Assembly: GCA_017429285.1 (NCBI GenBank)
Contig: JAFRPF010000037.1
Coordinates: 1 to 61,263 of the forward strand
Length of the DNA stretch: 61,263 bases
Origin: Bacilli bacterium
Lineage (GTDB): Bacteria > Bacillota_I > Bacilli_A > RFN20 > CAG-826
Direction of reading: 5' to 3'
Below the pieces are notes generated by a model. It was not told the DNA's origin. It saw only the letters and a list, made by a program, of their open reading frames with translations, and ran no database searches. The position numbers and the translations under genes were made by a program. Position 1 is the stretch's first letter; every line of letters starts with the position of its first letter. Of this stretch, positions 28,379-37,888 are shown piece after piece.

Positions 28379-29506
28379 ATGCCAAATAAAGTAGTAGCGA
28401 TGATCTTAGCTGGTGGTAAAGGCACTCGTTTAGAAGCTTTAACTAAAAAGACTGCTAAACCTGCCGTTTCTTTCGCCGCTAAGTATCGTATCATTGATTT
28501 CCCTCTTAGTAACTGCGCTAATAGTGGAATCAATACAATCGGTGTCTTGACTCAGTATGAATCTACTGATTTAGATGCTTATGTGGGCAACGGTGAGAAA
28601 TGGGGTCTTAACGGTGTTCACTCATTATTAACATCTTTAGCCCCAAGACAAACTGAGGAAGGTGCGAACTGGTATAAAGGTACCGCTGATGCTATTACTC
28701 AAAACTTAGATTTCTTAGATGAAAATGAACCAGATTACGTCTTAATTCTTTCTGGTGACCACATCTATAAAACCTTATATAACGATATGGTCGATTTACA
28801 TATCGACACCAACGCGGACGCGACAATTTCGGTTATTGAAGTTGATCCAAAAGAAGCTTCTCGTTTCGGTATTATGGCGGTGGATAAGGAAGACCGTATC
28901 GTTGAATTCCAAGAAAAACCAAAGCAACCAAAGAGCAATCTAGCTTCTATGGGTGTTTATGTTTTCTCCTGGAAAATATTAAGAAAATATTTAGTGGAAG
29001 ACGCTAAAGATCCAAAATCAGAACATGACTTTGGTAACAATATCATTCCAAAGATGCTTAACGATGGTTTGAAGCTTCAAGCTTATCGTTATAAAGGCTA
29101 TTGGAGAGATGTTGGAACATTAGCCTCTTTACACCAAGCCAATATGGATATCGCTTCTAACGATGAGATGCTCAATTTATATGAATCTGATCGTGAAACG
29201 AGAATTTATACCGAAGACACTTATAGTGTCCCTCAATATATTGGTCCCTCTGGTTCAGTTACTAAATCCGTAGCTAATCAAGGTTCGGTTATTTTAGGTC
29301 ATGTGGAATCATGCGTTATTTCCTCTGATGCGATTATTGAAGAAGACGCGGTTTGCACACGCTGCGTTATTATGAAAGGCGCGCGCGTCAGCCAAGGCGC
29401 AAAAGTGCATAATGCGATTATCGCTCCTTATTCAATTATCAAACCAAAAGAAGAAATTAATCTTAATAGCGACAAGATTGTCCTTATCGCTAGAGGAGGA
29501 AAATAA
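28379..29506 (+). CDS. glgC: Glucose-1-phosphate adenylyltransferase
   Basis: 375 residues. ILAGGKGTRLEALTKKTAKPAV is the nucleotide-binding start; LSGDHIY near 124 and the FQEKPKQP and YRYKGYWRDVGT segments are typical. The C-terminus has left-handed beta-helix repeats. It makes ADP-glucose, the committed step of glycogen synthesis. First gene of glgC-glgD-glgA. Confidence 0.95.
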   Translation: MPNKVVAMILAGGKGTRLEALTKKTAKPAVSFAAKYRIIDFPLSNCANSGINTIGVLTQYESTDLDAYVGNGEKWGLNGVHSLLTSLAPRQTEEGANWYKGTADAITQNLDFLDENEPDYVLILSGDHIYKTLYNDMVDLHIDTNADATISVIEVDPKEASRFGIMAVDKEDRIVEFQEKPKQPKSNLASMGVYVFSWKILRKYLVEDAKDPKSEHDFGNNIIPKMLNDGLKLQAYRYKGYWRDVGTLASLHQANMDIASNDEMLNLYESDRETRIYTEDTYSVPQYIGPSGSVTKSVANQGSVILGHVESCVISSDAIIEEDAVCTRCVIMKGARVSQGAKVHNAIIAPYSIIKPKEEINLNSDKIVLIARGGK

Positions 29507-29508
29507 TT

Positions 29509-30627
29509 ATGGCAAAGATTTTAGGTATTTGTAATTTACATGACACTCCTAGCTTAGGACAATTAACCAAAACTCGTCCTTTAGGTGCTTTGTCATTCTT
29601 ATCTAGATATGGACTAATGGACTTTACTTTAAGTAATTTCTCTAACTCCGGAATTGATAGAATTGTCATTCTCACCGAATCCAATACCTCTGCGGTTTTA
29701 AACCATACTCAACAAGGTAATGTTTGGATCAACAACACGAGAACTGGATTCTTAAGAATCTGTGTGAACGAGAAATATATCGATACCCCAAAATTTAACA
29801 CTGATATTGCGAATATTGAATCACATTATTCAATTATCGAAGATACTAATCCAGATTATATTATCCTCGCTCCTAGTTTCTTCTTAATGTCATTTGATTT
29901 TAGAAAAATGATTGAATTCCATGAAGAAAATGGTGCGGAAATTACCTGCTTATATACGAAAATTAAACACGGCAAAAAAGAATATTTAAACTGCGACACC
30001 TTAGAAATCGCGAAAAACCATGTTATCACCCATAGCAAAGCTAATGTTGGAGAAGAAGAAAAACAAAATATTTCTTTAGAAACGTTTATTTTCTCTAGAA
30101 GTGCTTTCGATAAGATTATCGCTTTAAGCCATAAAGTTTCTTCCTTATATGGATTTAGAAGGATGGTTTCTTATGCGATTAATCATCATCGTATTGCGGT
30201 TCACGCGTTTGAATATGATGGATATGTTGTTCCAATCTTATCCAGCATGGATTATGTTAATAAATCATTTGAATTGTTGTCTTATGAAAATAGACAAAAA
30301 TTATTCTTAGATGATTGGCCAATTTATACAACCACTCATAACACTCCACCAGCTTTATATGGTGAACATGCGAAAGTGAAAAATTCCTTTATCGCTAATG
30401 GAGCAATTATCAAAGGACAAGTGGAAAATTCTATCATCTCCCGTGATGTTACTATCGAAGAAGGAGCGGTTATTAAAAACTGTTTATTATTCACTCAAAC
30501 ATATGTTGGTAAAGATGCTCATCTTGAATATGTTTTAACTGATAAAAATGTCAAAGTGAAAGAAGTGAAGGAACTTTCTGGAACTAAAGATAAAATTCTT
30601 GTCATTAAACAAGGAGATATTATCTAA
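29509..30627 (+). CDS. glgD: GlgD, non-catalytic partner of ADP-glucose pyrophosphorylase
   Basis: 372 residues, paralogue of GlgC. The GGxGxRL catalytic loop is replaced by CNLHDTPSLGQLTKTRP, as in Bacillota GlgD, which pairs with GlgC and raises its activity. YGLMDFTLSNFSNSGI matches the substrate segment. AGGAGG precedes the ATG and the gene follows glgC by 2 bases. Confidence 0.92.
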   Translation: MAKILGICNLHDTPSLGQLTKTRPLGALSFLSRYGLMDFTLSNFSNSGIDRIVILTESNTSAVLNHTQQGNVWINNTRTGFLRICVNEKYIDTPKFNTDIANIESHYSIIEDTNPDYIILAPSFFLMSFDFRKMIEFHEENGAEITCLYTKIKHGKKEYLNCDTLEIAKNHVITHSKANVGEEEKQNISLETFIFSRSAFDKIIALSHKVSSLYGFRRMVSYAINHHRIAVHAFEYDGYVVPILSSMDYVNKSFELLSYENRQKLFLDDWPIYTTTHNTPPALYGEHAKVKNSFIANGAIIKGQVENSIISRDVTIEEGAVIKNCLLFTQTYVGKDAHLEYVLTDKNVKVKEVKELSGTKDKILVIKQGDII

Positions 30628-32063
30628 TGAAGATCGCCATGATTGCTAGCGAAGCTAGACCATTTTGTAAAACCGGTGGTTTAGCCGATGTCGTTTATTC
30701 TTTATCAAAAGAGTTAACAGTGATGGGCGAGGAAGTGATGGTCATTCTTCCTTTCTATCAAACTGTTAAAGACACGATTAAAAGTCCAGTTAAACTTTAC
30801 GATTCATTCTCCATCAATATGTCTTGGAGATATCAAGAAGTAAAAGTTTATTTAACATATACAGATGGCATTACCTATTACTTCATCGAACATTGGTATT
30901 TTGATCGTTCCCGTATTTACGGGGATGGTGACGATGGAGAAAGATTTGCCTTCTTCTCTTTAGCGGCTACTGAGTTTTTATTTAGAATGAAAAAAGCCCC
31001 AGATATCATCCATGTCCATGACTGGCAACCTGGTATGATTCCTTGTCTTATTCGTGAAGTGGATGGATTTAAAGAAAAATTTTCTAAAACTCATACGGTG
31101 ATGACCATTCATAACCCCGCTTTCCAAGGCATGCTTGATAGAGACGCCTTACCAAATTTATATAATTTAAGCGAATCATTATATGATGATGGACAAGTGA
31201 GATTAGATGATAAAGTATCTACTTTAAAAGCCGGTATTGTTTATGCAGATAAAATCACCACAGTTTCTCCAAACCATCATGAAGAATTATTAACTCCACA
31301 AGGTGGTATGCATCTAGATGGTGTCTTAAGACTTAGAGAATGGGATTTCTGTGGCATTCTTAACGGTATCGATTATTTAGAATTTAATCCGGAAAACGAT
31401 CCCTATTTAGTGGAAAACTATACCTATAAAGATTTAATCGCTAAAAAGAAGATTAATCATGATAAGCTACTAGAAGAATTACATATTAAAGATTTTGATA
31501 GACCTTTATATTCCGTCGTTTCCAGGTTAACCTGGCAAAAAGGTTTAGATATCATGTTCCCAGCGATTGAAGAATTAGCTTTAAGAGGATGTAATATTGT
31601 CGTCCTTGGCAGTGGAGAAAGACAATATGAGATGGAACTGGAAAGATTAAGAGCTAAATATCCTGATAATATCGCTATTTATATCGGTTATAACGACGCA
31701 TTAGCACATCGTATTTATGCCGCTAGTGACTTCTTTATGATGCCTTCATTATTTGAACCATGTGGTTTAGGGCAAATGATTGCTCAAAGATATGGAACAT
31801 TGCCCATTGTAAGAAGAACCGGTGGATTAAAAGATTCCGTTATTAATTTTGATAGTTCTAATGAAAAGACTTCTAATGGATTTGGTTTTGATAATTATCA
31901 TCCAGATGATATGAAATATACTTGTGTCTATGCTTATGACACATGGTTTAATAAAGCTTTAATTAAAAAATTAAAAGTTAATGCGATGAAAACCGATAAT
32001 TCCTGGAGAAGAAGCGCGAAGAATTATCTCGGTGTTTATAAGGAACTTATTTCTCGTAAATAG
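30627..32063 (+). CDS. glgA: Glycogen synthase (ADP-glucose type)
   Basis: 478 residues, GT5 family, GT-B fold. KTGGLADVVYSL near 16-27 binds ADP-glucose; HVHDWQPGMIP, NGIDYLEFNPENDP and the PSLFEPCGLGQM segment with its catalytic Glu are present. It adds glucose units in alpha-1,4 linkage. No branching enzyme (glgB) or phosphorylase (glgP) lies in the window. It overlaps the glgD stop by one base. Confidence 0.95.
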   Translation: MKIAMIASEARPFCKTGGLADVVYSLSKELTVMGEEVMVILPFYQTVKDTIKSPVKLYDSFSINMSWRYQEVKVYLTYTDGITYYFIEHWYFDRSRIYGDGDDGERFAFFSLAATEFLFRMKKAPDIIHVHDWQPGMIPCLIREVDGFKEKFSKTHTVMTIHNPAFQGMLDRDALPNLYNLSESLYDDGQVRLDDKVSTLKAGIVYADKITTVSPNHHEELLTPQGGMHLDGVLRLREWDFCGILNGIDYLEFNPENDPYLVENYTYKDLIAKKKINHDKLLEELHIKDFDRPLYSVVSRLTWQKGLDIMFPAIEELALRGCNIVVLGSGERQYEMELERLRAKYPDNIAIYIGYNDALAHRIYAASDFFMMPSLFEPCGLGQMIAQRYGTLPIVRRTGGLKDSVINFDSSNEKTSNGFGFDNYHPDDMKYTCVYAYDTWFNKALIKKLKVNAMKTDNSWRRSAKNYLGVYKELISRK

Positions 32064-32083: not shown

Positions 32084-34480
32084 ATGGGTTACGATTATTC
32101 AAAAATAGAAAAGAAATGGCAAAAATATTGGAATGATCATCAAACATTTAAAACTGATGTTTGGGATTTTTCAAAACCAAAATTTTATGCTTTAGATATG
32201 TTTCCATATCCTTCTGGAGTGGGACTTCATGCTGGTCACCCAGAAGGGTATACCGCCACTGATATCGTTTCCCGTATGAAAAGGATGCAAGGATATAATG
32301 TCCTTCACCCCATGGGATATGATTCTTTTGGTTTACCCGCGGAACAATACGCGATTCAAACTGGTCATCATCCTGAAGGATTTACCCAAACTAACATAGA
32401 AACATTTACTCACCAATTAAAAGAACTGGGTTTTGATTATGATTGGGATAAGATGATTTCCACAAGTGATCCAAATTTCTATAAATGGACGCAGTGGATT
32501 TTTAAAGGTTTATTTATCGATGGTTATGCCAAATATATCGATATGCCTGTGAATTGGTGCGAAGAACTTGGTACTGTTTTATCAAATGACGAAGTCATCG
32601 ATGGTAAAAGTGAAAGAGGCGGTTATCCTGTTATTCGTAAGAATTTAAAACAGTGGGTCATCGACCAACCCAAATTTGCGGAAGAATTATTAGAAGGACT
32701 CGACCGTATTGATTGGCCAGAATCCACGAAAGAAATTCAAAGAAACTGGATTGGTAAATCAATCGGTGCATTAGTCGATTTTAAAGTCGAAAGAAGTAAT
32801 GAAAAATTTACTGTTTTTACCACAAGATGTGACACACTTTTTGGTGCGACATATTGTGTTTTAGCGCCTGAACATCCATTGGTGAAAAAGATTACCACTG
32901 ATGAACAAAGAAAAGCTATTGAAGATTATGTTGAAGTCTCTTCGAGAAAATCAGAACTTGAAAGAACTTCGTTAAATAAAGAAAAAACCGGTGTATTTAC
33001 CGGTAGTTATGCGATTAATCCCGTAAATAATAAATTAATCCCAATTTATATTTCTGATTATGTTTTATCTACTTATGGAACTGGAGCCATTATGGCGGTT
33101 CCCGCTCACGACAGTAGAGATTATGCTTTCGCTAAGAAATTTAATTTAGAAATCATTCCTGTCCTTGAAGGTGGAAATATTGCTAAAGAAGCTTACGAGG
33201 GTGATGGTTTACATATCAACTCCGGTTTCTTAAACGGATTAAATAAGAAAGATGCGATAGATAAGATGTTATCTTTCTTAAAAGAAAAAGGAATTGGTGA
33301 ACAAAAAATAAATTATAAATTTAGAGAATGGATATTCGCTAGACAAAGATATTGGGGTGAACCTGTTCCTGTTGTGCATATGGAAGATGGCTCCATTCAT
33401 CCTTTATCTGATGAAGAATTACCACTTGTTTTACCTATATTAGATGACTATAAAGGTCATAATGGACAAGCTCCACTTGAAAACGCCACTAAGTGGAAAG
33501 AATATGAATTTAACGGACTAAAAGGTAAAAGAGAAACATCCACAATGCCAGGAAGCGCTGGTAGTAGCTGGTATTTCTTAAGATATGTCGATCCACACAA
33601 TAATGAGACGTTCTGCGATAAACGTTTAGCGGACCACTGGTTACCAGTTGATTTATATATCGGTGGGCCAGAACACGCGGTGGGACATTTAATCTATTCC
33701 CGTATCTGGACCAAATATTTGTATAAAAAAGGATATATATCCTTTGATGAGCCATTTAAGAAATTAGTTCATCAAGGTATGATTTTAGGCGCAAACGGCA
33801 TTAAGATGGGTAAACGTTATCCAGAATTTGTCATTAATCCGAGCGATATTGTTCGAGACTATGGTGCGGATACATTACGCTTATATGAAATGTTCATGGG
33901 ACCACTTGAAGCGAGCAAACCTTGGTCTGATCAAGGGGTTGAAGGAGCACATCGATATTTAGAAAGAGTGTACCGTGCAATCGTGGAAAGTGATTTCATC
34001 GTCGATGAAGAAATTCCTGAACTTGATCTAATCTATAATCAAACTGTCAAAAAAGTCAGTGAAGATTATGAAAATCTCTTCTTTAATACGGCGATTTCAC
34101 AAATGATGATCTTCATAAATGAAGTCTATAAAATTGGTAAATTACCAAGAAAATATGCGGAAGGATTTGTGAAATTAATCTCCTGTATTACCCCTCATAT
34201 CGGTGAGGAGATGTGGGAAAAACTCGGACATAATAACACCATTGCTTATGAAAGTTGGCCAACTTATGATCCGACTAAACTTGAATCTAATAGTGTAAAA
34301 ATTGCTGTTAGCGTTAACGGCAAATTACGTGGCACTTTAGAGATAGATAAAGATAGTGACGATGAAAAGGTGAAAGCACTAGCCTTAGAACTTGAAAATG
34401 TTAGAAAGTTCACCGAGGGTCTCACTATTAGAAAAATCATTGTTGTTAAAAACAAGATTGTAAATATTGTCGTCAGTTAA
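32084..34480 (+). CDS. leuS: Leucyl-tRNA synthetase
   Basis: 798 residues, class I. HIGH-type motif [16 protein letters not shown] near 45-60, the CP1 editing domain with [12 protein letters not shown] and AVPAHDSRD, and a KMSKS loop that reads KMGKR (Lys574 onwards). All domains, including the C-terminal one, look complete. The short gap to glgA (20 bases, with GAGGTG) suggests read-through from the glycogen operon. No T-box leader is present. Confidence 0.96.
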
Positions 34481-34526
34481 TTAATTTATGCACGATACCC
34501 AATTAGGGATTGTAGCGGAGGTAAAA

Positions 34527-35297
34527 ATGAATTTATGTATTGACGTCGGTAACACGACAATAGGGGTAGGCTTTTTCAAAGAAAAAGAATTATTCCTAAG
34601 ATTAACATTTACAGTTAATCAAAAACAAACAAAAGACGAATTTAAAAGCGTCATTAAAAGAACATTAGAAGAAAATAAAACATCTACTAGCGATATTAGT
34701 AGAATCATCTTTTCTTCTGTAGTTCCTTCTTTAAATTCTCCTTTTATTGGAGCATTAGAAGAAGTCTTTAATATCAAGCCCTTATTAATCGCTCCTGGGA
34801 TTAAAACTGGATTGAGTGTTCATGTTGATAATCCAAGTGAAATTGGTAATGACTTAATCGGTGTGATGGTGGGGGCTAAAGAAAAATATGGCTACCCCTT
34901 ATTAATCGCTGATTTAGGAACCGCTAGTAAGATTTTATTAATTGATAAAAGTGGATCATTTATTAGCTGTTTAATTATGCCTGGTTTATCTTTAAGTTTA
35001 TCTTCTTTAACTAGTAGAGCAGCATTATTACCAGAAATAATGATTAAAGTTCCAGAAACTATTTTAGCCAAGAACACGATTGATGCGATTAACGCCGGTG
35101 TCATATTCGGACATGCGGATATGATTAACGGAGCGATTAACCGCTACGAAAAAGAAATTGGTTATAAATGTAAGCACATCCTATCAGGAGGAAGTGGTGT
35201 TTATCTAAAAGATATATTAAAACAAGATTTTGAATACGATCCTGATTTATGTTTAAAAGGTTTAAATTCTATTATCTATAGAAACGAGGAAAAGTAA
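34527..35297 (+). CDS. coaX: Type III pantothenate kinase
   Basis: 256 residues from the ATG at 34527 (GGAGG five bases upstream; a frame opening at 34488 has no ribosome site). CIDVGNTTIGVGFF is the ASKHA phosphate-1 motif; LIADLGTASKI and LSGGSG follow. It phosphorylates pantothenate in CoA synthesis. Usual CoaX reads DxGTA/T near 130; this one has ADLGTASK. It lies next to an ECF S-component gene; coaE is also in the window, fused to mutM at 51.3 kb. Confidence 0.9.
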   Translation: MNLCIDVGNTTIGVGFFKEKELFLRLTFTVNQKQTKDEFKSVIKRTLEENKTSTSDISRIIFSSVVPSLNSPFIGALEEVFNIKPLLIAPGIKTGLSVHVDNPSEIGNDLIGVMVGAKEKYGYPLLIADLGTASKILLIDKSGSFISCLIMPGLSLSLSSLTSRAALLPEIMIKVPETILAKNTIDAINAGVIFGHADMINGAINRYEKEIGYKCKHILSGGSGVYLKDILKQDFEYDPDLCLKGLNSIIYRNEEK

Positions 35298-35298
35298 T

Positions 35299-37290
35299 AT
35301 GAAAAACGAAAATGTAAAATCTATTGCGCGTAACGCTCTTATTGTTGCCGTTATTGCTATTATGTCATTTGTACCATATGTAGGATATATTGGTATCCCG
35401 GCAGTTGGTATTTCTATTACCACAATTCATCTTGCGGTTTTAATATTCGCGTGGATGTTTGGTTGGAAGGAAGGTTTGGTTTCAGGCTTGGCCTTTGGTA
35501 TTTTCTCTTTAATTAAAGCGGCCACTATGCCAAATTCTCCAATTGATGTTTATTTTGTTAATCCTCTTATTTCTGTTTTGCCTCGTGTTCTATTCGGTTT
35601 CTTAGCTGGTATCATTTTTGATATCTTAAGAAAGATTAGAAAACCTCACGTCAGATTAATTTCTAATATCATTGTTTGTGGAATTATGACTTTATTCCAT
35701 TCTATTCTTACCTTATCCATGCTCTATGTGATGGCGGGTAATAAAGAACAATTACAAACATTTACTTATTTCTCTCTTATTTTGACTTTAGTAAGTTGGA
35801 ACGGGTTATTAGAATTAGCCGCCTCAATTATCATTACACCTTTATTAATTCTGCCTTTAGATAAGGCCTTTCCTGATTACGAAGCTTTATATCATGGAAC
35901 CTTAAAAGGAAGAAAAAGAGCCTCGATTTACGAGACTATTACACTAAATAGCCGTCAAGAGTTATTAGAAAACTTAGGTAAATTTGTCTCTATCAATTCC
36001 GTTTTTGATGGTAGCACTGTTGATAAAAATAATCCTTTTGGTAAAGGTGTTAGTAAGGCCTTAGGATTCATCGAAAAGTTAGCCAGAAACGATGGCTTTA
36101 CCGTTACTAATTACGAAAATAAAGTTGTCGAAATTTTATGTGGCGAAGGCAAAAATATTACCATTTTAGCTCACGCTGACGTCGTTCCTGCTGGTACAGG
36201 TTGGAATCAAGATCCATTTAAGATGGTTGATCATGGCGATCGTTTAACTGGTCGTGGTGTGGCTGATGATAAAGGCCCATTACTTGCCGCTTATTATGCT
36301 ATGAAAGCCATTAGAGATAATCATTTACAAGGTGATTATCAAATTAGATTTATTGTCGGTGGAAATGAGGAAAGTGGATCCGCTGGCGTGGAATATTATT
36401 TTAATAAATTAAAGAAGGTTCAACCTGACTTTGGATTCTCTCCAGATGCGGAATATCCTTTGATTTTTGCGGAAAAAGGAATTGTGAATTTTGAGGTTAA
36501 AAAGAAGCTAACTTTAAAGCATGTATATTCCATCGATGGGGGTGAAGCTAGTAACTCCGTTATTGAGAAGTGTGTTGTCGTTTTAGATTATGACACTGAC
36601 TTCATTACTTATTTAGATGATGGCCGTTATGATGTTGATTATATTAGAGACGAGGATAAATTAATTGTCACCTTTAAGGGAAAAGCCGCCCATGGATCAA
36701 CTCCTGAAAATGGTTTCAATGCTGGTATGGCGGCGATTAAATGTCTAGCTAATTACTTTACTAATAAAGATTTATTACAACTTTATGCTTGCTATAGCAA
36801 TTTACAAGGTTATGGTTTAGATGCCTTTGGTAATTCCGATGAAATGGGTCATAACTCATTAAATGTTGGCATTATCAAATTTGACGGAAAAGAATTTGAA
36901 ATGATTGTTAATTTCCGTTATGTCGATACTTGTGATATCGAAGATATTAAAAGAAATATCAAAGAACATAGCAAACCATTTACTATTAACTTCTTAGGTG
37001 AAAGTAAACTATTACATTATCCAAAAGAATCAGTTTTAGTGCAGACTTTATTAAAAGCTTATCAAGATGAAACTGGTGATCTTAAGAGTGAACCAAAAGC
37101 TATCGGTGGTGGAACTTATGCCAAAGAAGCCAATAATATCGTGGCATTTGGTATGGAATTCCCCGGCTGGAATTCGAATATGCACTCCCCAGGTGAACAG
37201 GTGAGAAAATCCGACTTATTCAAATCTCTTAGCATTTATGCTAAGGCGATTGTAGATTTAGGAAAGGAACTCGAAAAGCGTGAGGACTAA
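35299..37290 (+). CDS. Fusion of an ECF transporter S-component with an M20 (PepV/Sapep-like) dipeptidase
   Basis: 663 residues in one frame. Residues 1 to about 195 are a six-helix membrane unit like ECF vitamin transporter S-components, with AxxxA (Ala13, Ala17) in helix 1, the contact motif for the T-component. After a ~15-residue basic linker (LKGRKRAS) comes a complete M20 metallopeptidase: AHADVVP (His292, Asp294), GRGVADDKG near 317, GNEESGS (Glu pair near 356), DAEYP, the lid segment KAAHGSTPENG, and SNMHSP (His629). No internal start sits near the junction. The S-component part may take up pantothenate, given the coaX neighbour, or a peptide-like solute. I do not know this fusion from any characterised protein. 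Confidence 0.85.
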   Translation: MKNENVKSIARNALIVAVIAIMSFVPYVGYIGIPAVGISITTIHLAVLIFAWMFGWKEGLVSGLAFGIFSLIKAATMPNSPIDVYFVNPLISVLPRVLFGFLAGIIFDILRKIRKPHVRLISNIIVCGIMTLFHSILTLSMLYVMAGNKEQLQTFTYFSLILTLVSWNGLLELAASIIITPLLILPLDKAFPDYEALYHGTLKGRKRASIYETITLNSRQELLENLGKFVSINSVFDGSTVDKNNPFGKGVSKALGFIEKLARNDGFTVTNYENKVVEILCGEGKNITILAHADVVPAGTGWNQDPFKMVDHGDRLTGRGVADDKGPLLAAYYAMKAIRDNHLQGDYQIRFIVGGNEESGSAGVEYYFNKLKKVQPDFGFSPDAEYPLIFAEKGIVNFEVKKKLTLKHVYSIDGGEASNSVIEKCVVVLDYDTDFITYLDDGRYDVDYIRDEDKLIVTFKGKAAHGSTPENGFNAGMAAIKCLANYFTNKDLLQLYACYSNLQGYGLDAFGNSDEMGHNSLNVGIIKFDGKEFEMIVNFRYVDTCDIEDIKRNIKEHSKPFTINFLGESKLLHYPKESVLVQTLLKAYQDETGDLKSEPKAIGGGTYAKEANNIVAFGMEFPGWNSNMHSPGEQVRKSDLFKSLSIYAKAIVDLGKELEKRED

Positions 37291-37888
37291 ATATAAACCT
37301 TGGGCTGAACCTTATATTAAAGAACATAACGAAGTAATGTTTTCTTTAGAAGAACTTCTATCTTTTAATAAACCTTATTATCTAGAAATCGGTTCTGGTA
37401 AAGGCCAATTTTTAGTCGATATGGCCAAAAAATTTCCAGATAAATTTTTCGTCGGTGTTGAAAGAAATATTACCTGCTCTGGATTTACGGCGAAAAAGCT
37501 CGTCGAATCAGAAATAAATAATGCGAAACTGATGTTTATTAACGCTGAGATATTAATTAAGGAAATAAAAGATAATTCTATTGAATCAATATTTTTAAAT
37601 TTCTCTGACCCTTGGCCAAAGAAAAGACATCATAAAAGAAGATTAACAGCGAAATATTATTTAGAGAATTATTACCGAGTACTGAAAAATGGTGGAAGAC
37701 TAATCATTAAAACAGATAATGTAGATTTATTTAATTTCACTTTAGAAAATATTTCCGAAACAAAATTTAAATTAATTTACCAAAACGATAATTATCTTGA
37801 TTTAGATGAATTTGATACGATGACGGAATATGAGAAAAGTTTCCGTGATGAAGGCATTAAAATCAACCGTTTAATATTGGAGAAATAA
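37280..37888 (+). CDS. trmB: tRNA (guanine-N7)-methyltransferase
   Basis: 202 residues. EIGSGKGQFLVDMAKKFP near 36-53 is the SAM loop; NFSDPWPKKRHHKRRL near 112-127 is the TrmB signature. It makes m7G46 in tRNA. The start is GTG at 37280, overlapping the previous stop by 11 bases. Confidence 0.94.
   Translation: MRTKYKPWAEPYIKEHNEVMFSLEELLSFNKPYYLEIGSGKGQFLVDMAKKFPDKFFVGVERNITCSGFTAKKLVESEINNAKLMFINAEILIKEIKDNSIESIFLNFSDPWPKKRHHKRRLTAKYYLENYYRVLKNGGRLIIKTDNVDLFNFTLENISETKFKLIYQNDNYLDLDEFDTMTEYEKSFRDEGIKINRLILEK

Follow-up and report, generated by a model that had tools for sequence, protein, structure and literature searches.

A PanT-type importer subunit joined to an M20 dipeptidase in uncultured gut and rumen Bacilli

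According to the current view, S-components topple within the membrane and take turns on a common ECF module. A gene of the Bacilli bacterium assembly GCA_017429285.1 raises the question of why such a subunit should share one chain with a soluble peptidase. The gene lies in the window, by which we mean the whole 61,263-nucleotide stretch analysed (contig JAFRPF010000037.1). An earlier note, made from the sequence without database searches, proposed that uptake is coupled to the hydrolysis of a peptide-like substrate or to the release of a vitamin from a conjugate. The reading that we consider probable is plainer, namely an otherwise ordinary dipeptidase tethered to an importer subunit of PanT type, formed by the joining of neighbouring frames.

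The fused gene and its spread

The features of the locus are as follows:
32084..34480, forward strand: leuS, the usual upstream cluster member (open reading frame; conserved order in relatives)
34488..35297, forward strand: coaX, type III pantothenate kinase (TIGR00671, 184 bits versus a cut-off of 58)
35299..35868, forward strand: ECF S-component domain, PanT-related, residues 1-190 (PF12822, PDB matches, model fold)
35869..35925, forward strand: flexible, basic linker (KGRKR), residues 191-209 (pLDDT, start-codon scan)
35926..37287, forward strand: M20 dipeptidase domain of PepV/Sapep type, residues 210-663 (TIGR01887, PepV residue map, model fold)
37280..37888, forward strand: trmB, tRNA methyltransferase, the usual M20 partner (open reading frame; M20-trmB adjacency)

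The frame at 35299-37290 on the forward strand translates into 663 amino acids without an internal stop. Pfam ECF_trnsprt (PF12822) covers residues 7-184 (E 1.3e-15), Peptidase_M20 covers residues 290-651 (E 4e-24), and the AlphaFold model (mean pLDDT 93.4, pTM 0.72) places six transmembrane-length helices in the S-domain. Translation, Pfam, NCBIfam and the model thus bear out the earlier description of a single 663-codon frame that joins a six-helix S-component to a complete M20 peptidase. The linker, whose structure prediction the earlier note had proposed as a check, has a pLDDT of about 61, falls below 50 at residues 199-205, includes the lowest-confidence stretch of the model and is predicted to be flexible; a pTM of 0.72 is compatible with domains that are each rigid but loosely oriented towards one another. 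Judging from the six model helices and the basic linker, the C-terminal end of the S-domain should be cytosolic. The start-codon scan found no in-frame ATG, GTG or TTG across residues 186-250 of the window's own copy, so that a separate peptidase start from a canonical codon is impossible there.

We searched 58 relatives and 222 genomes of the order, the latter mostly draft assemblies, for the same two-domain architecture and found the identical in-frame fusion in 18 genomes, assembled independently of one another and spread over six genera: four each in g1 (one cut by a contig end) and g13, three each in g48 and g51, and two each in g28 and g49. Some of these assemblies consist of very few contigs (three in G109, five in G032). 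Because the fusion recurs in this way, a sequencing error at the S-M20 junction, which the earlier note had named as its refutation (near 35870-35940), is excluded, and the fusion is real rather than an artefact. The genomes that carry it belong to a group of bacteria from gut and rumen that have not been cultured; searches of the samples at order, class and phylum level found no fusion outside family f1 of this order. One relative (G001) is a metagenome-assembled genome labelled Erysipelotrichaceae. On reading, the long open frames in G245, G300, G436, G365, G295, G217 and G040 proved to be something other than S-M20 fusions. Genera g18 and g25 carry in-frame S-stop-M20 arrangements, which we do not take as a sign of read-through, since roughly a third of adjacent gene pairs lie in a common frame by chance and only such pairs are joined in the search.

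The two domains and the pantothenate supply

At E values up to 10, the only PDB sequence matches of the S-domain were 6zg3_C and 4rfs_S, both PanT (E 3e-21 and 5e-18 to the two PanT sequences). Modelled alone, the S-domain reached Z 21.5 to both PanT chains over 185-193 residues, and the next S-components followed at Z 15.1, 14.2 and 13.8. FolT, ThiT and RibU were rejected as identities, PanT fitting better in both sequence and fold; the S-domain is thus PanT-related by sequence and predicted fold. It shares with ECF-PanT of L. brevis (4RFS) and L. delbrueckii (6ZG3) the fold, the sequence, the pocket arginine, a shared ECF module in the genome and the AxxxA motif in helix 1 (A13-x-x-x-A17), which is kept just as the earlier note had it. 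Unlike in those systems, the C-terminus is joined to a 450-residue enzyme, and the pocket Trp and Asn are replaced by Phe and His.

PMC7755397, citing Zhang 2014, ties W64, R95 and N131 of L. brevis PanT to pantothenate binding by mutagenesis. The equivalent positions in the fused protein are F66, R96 and H134. Since two of the three residues are changed, we call the S-domain PanT-type and infer its substrate, which may not be pantothenate itself. Among 60 relatives, the Arg is invariant (60/60), Phe stands for Trp in 54 and His for Asn in 56; all 18 fused proteins have R96, F66 and H134, and 17 of them have A17. The pocket is still W/R/N in L139, a coaX-linked relative from another family, it is F/R/N in the coaX-linked L128 and L129, and the altered pocket is also present where the S gene is far from the M20 gene. 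The change therefore looks gradual within coaX-linked proteins and not tied to M20. We regard vitamin B5 as probably the compound that the S-domain captures.

Pathway checks made family by family recovered no panC over the cut-off in any of the 222 genomes of the order, and panC is absent from the window's genome, which must therefore rely on taking up pantothenate. EcfT, EcfA2 and part of EcfA1, whose presence the earlier note had left to be checked, lie together in the window's genome (G000:C21, L045), and the docking motif and the ECF module are therefore both present. The genome has three other PF12822 S-components, assigned as ThiT (above the cut-off), as a FolT-family protein that adjoins a folC-like gene (below the cut-off) and, by eye, as RibU-like. 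The window's genome lacks BioY, the family in which we place B. subtilis PanU, and no other pantothenate S-component was recognised among the genome's PF12822 and BioY matches. The PanT-only PDB matches, the constant coaX partner, the absence of panC and the presence of EcfA1A2T strengthen the hint at pantothenate-type compounds that the earlier note had taken from coaX. The ThiT gene of the window's genome (L024:1366-2532, G000:C3) has approximately 160 extra C-terminal residues of membrane-spanning look beyond the 183-position ThiT model, and a 409-residue frame of G040 (L143:2908-4137, minus strand) combines, by eye, an N-terminal two-helix part with a FolT-type S-component.

In the M20 domain, NCBIfam TIGR01887 (Sapep-family dipeptidase) covers residues 220-651 (E 3e-114, 382.5 bits versus a cut-off of 207.95); the domain scores above the Sapep subfamily cut-off and, at 397.7 bits, below the cut-off of 435 for the PepV equivalog NF005591. 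The model matches 3ki9 with Z 45.4 and PepV 1lfw with Z 44.7. The ten functional PepV positions checked, covering metal, catalytic and lid residues, are all identical (H292, D294, D323, E357, E358, D383, N419, H465, R540 and H629), in agreement with the earlier claim that all metal and catalytic residues are present. The domain thus resembles PepV of L. delbrueckii (1LFW) and Sapep SACOL1801 of S. aureus (3KI9/3KHX) in its whole catalytic and lid domains, in all metal ligands and in the catalytic Glu, and it differs in being tethered to a membrane importer subunit. Arg540, Asn419 and His465, the equivalents of Arg350, Asn217 and His269 in PepV, form the kept set that binds the free C-terminus. 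An Asp at the Asp383 position (the Asp177-equivalent metal ligand) is tied to dipeptidase/aminopeptidase rather than aminoacylase specificity (PMC6271292). This position holds Asp in 16 of the 16 aligned fused proteins and in none the Glu of the aminoacylase/carboxypeptidase type. The residues point to an active site of the free-dipeptide type rather than the N-acyl-amide type, and both active sites are conserved across the aligned fused proteins.

S-component-fold receptors, the 5TMR histidine kinases, likewise combine the shared membrane fold with a cytosolic domain (PMC11109136); they are sensors, whereas the present protein retains AxxxA and has a peptidase as its partner domain. The same paper links AxxxA conservation to ECF assembly, and the word peptidase does not occur in it. 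A search of the open-licence literature found no published S-component-peptidase fusion, which is weak evidence of novelty.

Gene order, origin of the fusion and alternative readings

The coaX stop lies 1 base before the start of the fused gene, and trmB overlaps the latter by 11 bases. The cluster runs leuS-coaX-(S)-M20-trmB, optionally followed by genes for a tRNA-binding protein and a nicotinate-type phosphoribosyltransferase, and the state of S varies, for it can be fused, stand as a gene of its own, give way to a divergent S-component or be absent; where it is absent, as in G002 of the window's own genus and in genus g23, coaX abuts M20. Among the 86 genomes with coordinates listed for both genes, S lies beside M20, in the order coaX-S-M20, in 76, of which 16 have the two fused and 60 have them adjacent but separate. 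Where S lies apart from M20, it immediately adjoins coaX in nine of the nine genomes in which its locus was read. M20 adjoins trmB in 109 loci of 44 genera, and this pair also occurs in other orders, without coaX or S upstream. S thus tracks coaX and M20 tracks trmB, and the fusion therefore joins the edges of two units. This evidence favours a merger of two adjacent genes over a new uptake-and-cut machine, and it cautions that a fused gene does not by itself prove a common pathway.

Several observations accompany the cluster. The coaX family models begin at residue 14, so that the true start may be 34527 and the open frame is probably 13 codons too long (34488-34526). Divergent S-components lie between coaX and M20 in several genera (L010:1902-2537, L015:2868-3461, L018:2884-3411 and L117), and similar genes lie elsewhere in genomes with an S-less cluster (L133, L134, L141 and L142). 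Just upstream of leuS, three frames at 28379-32063 of the window resemble, by eye, a glycogen cluster in the order glgC-glgD-glgA; the genome measures only about 1.26 Mb.

In the M20 tree, the fused proteins stand in separate places with a minimum of five changes, and a single fused clade is rejected (p-AU 1.5e-12); the S tree needs four changes, and a single fused clade is not quite rejected (p-AU 0.06). The fusion probably arose more than once, and both several fusions and fewer with later splitting and loss fit the trees. Among the named genes of the cluster in the loci read, which were partly selected for fusion and of which a few were counted twice, all junctions being drawn from the same loci, S-M20 is the sole recurrently fused junction (six genera); no fusion was found at M20-trmB (44 genera), coaX-S (25), leuS-coaX (18) or trmB-tRBD (17). 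This recurrence may reflect selection rather than accident, and it is mainly for this reason that we do not call the fusion a mere accident. In G155, trmB is fused in frame, at the same cluster, with an M42 glutamyl aminopeptidase gene (L050:3369-5003), a second neighbour fusion whose functional link is not obvious, and which we count for the joining of neighbouring genes.

An import-and-cleave unit would bring in pantetheine or a pantothenoyl peptide through an altered PanT and use the M20 domain to release pantothenate for CoaX. The idea is attractive because the linked kinase is CoaX, a type that cannot use pantetheine (PMC11487621, PMC12570885). The near-constant F and H in place of the pocket W and N, the common coaX-S-M20 order and the recurrent fusion would suit it as well. 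However, the same pocket substitutions occur where the S and M20 genes lie far apart, the M20 domain stays where S is lost and its homologues adjoin trmB in orders without S, and the catalytic domain keeps Asp383 (PMC6271292) with Arg540, Asn419 and His465, whereas pantetheine is without a free amine or carboxylate. We hold such a unit to be improbable, and equally so the broader notion that the fused protein hydrolyses an imported pantothenate conjugate or peptide-like compound on arrival and thereby feeds CoaX. The coupling proposed in the earlier note fares poorly on the same grounds, with S following coaX and M20 following trmB at cluster breaks, M20 persisting without S and a site of the free-dipeptide type.

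Tethering could also have been selected without a shared substrate, for instance to hold a dipeptidase at the membrane near peptide importers or to give a 1:1 supply of products such as cysteine or beta-alanine from dipeptides near CoA synthesis. Fusion at the S-M20 junction alone, the conservation of both active sites and the predicted cytosolic end of the S-domain agree with this, but most adjacent pairs are unfused (60/76 genomes), and we rate it as unlikely. That the S-domain is a mere membrane anchor without transport is very improbable: S-domains do diverge faster than M20 domains within the genus (50% versus 78% identity), but the pocket residues and A17 are kept as described, panC is absent, and the PF12822 and BioY matches of the genome yielded no further pantothenate S-component.

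Taken with what is established about ECF transporters and PepV, the evidence favours a functional PanT-type subunit that bears a functional dipeptidase at its cytosolic end. Under this preferred reading, the S-domain would capture pantothenate or a very close relative, dock via its AxxxA face on the shared EcfT/EcfA1/EcfA2 module, topple and hand the vitamin to CoaX. The M20 domain would hang in the cytosol on its flexible linker of about 19 residues and hydrolyse free dipeptides as its unfused homologues do. The shared chain would go back to an arrangement in which coaX-panT sat immediately upstream of a long-standing pepV-trmB pair, with the frames then merging, probably on more than one occasion. 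Nature thereby supplies a test case for the load that toppling and exchange can bear, namely a native S-component with a 50-kDa soluble enzyme attached, and the fusion raises a testable question about the vitamin B5 supply of uncultured gut Bacilli that are unable to make it.
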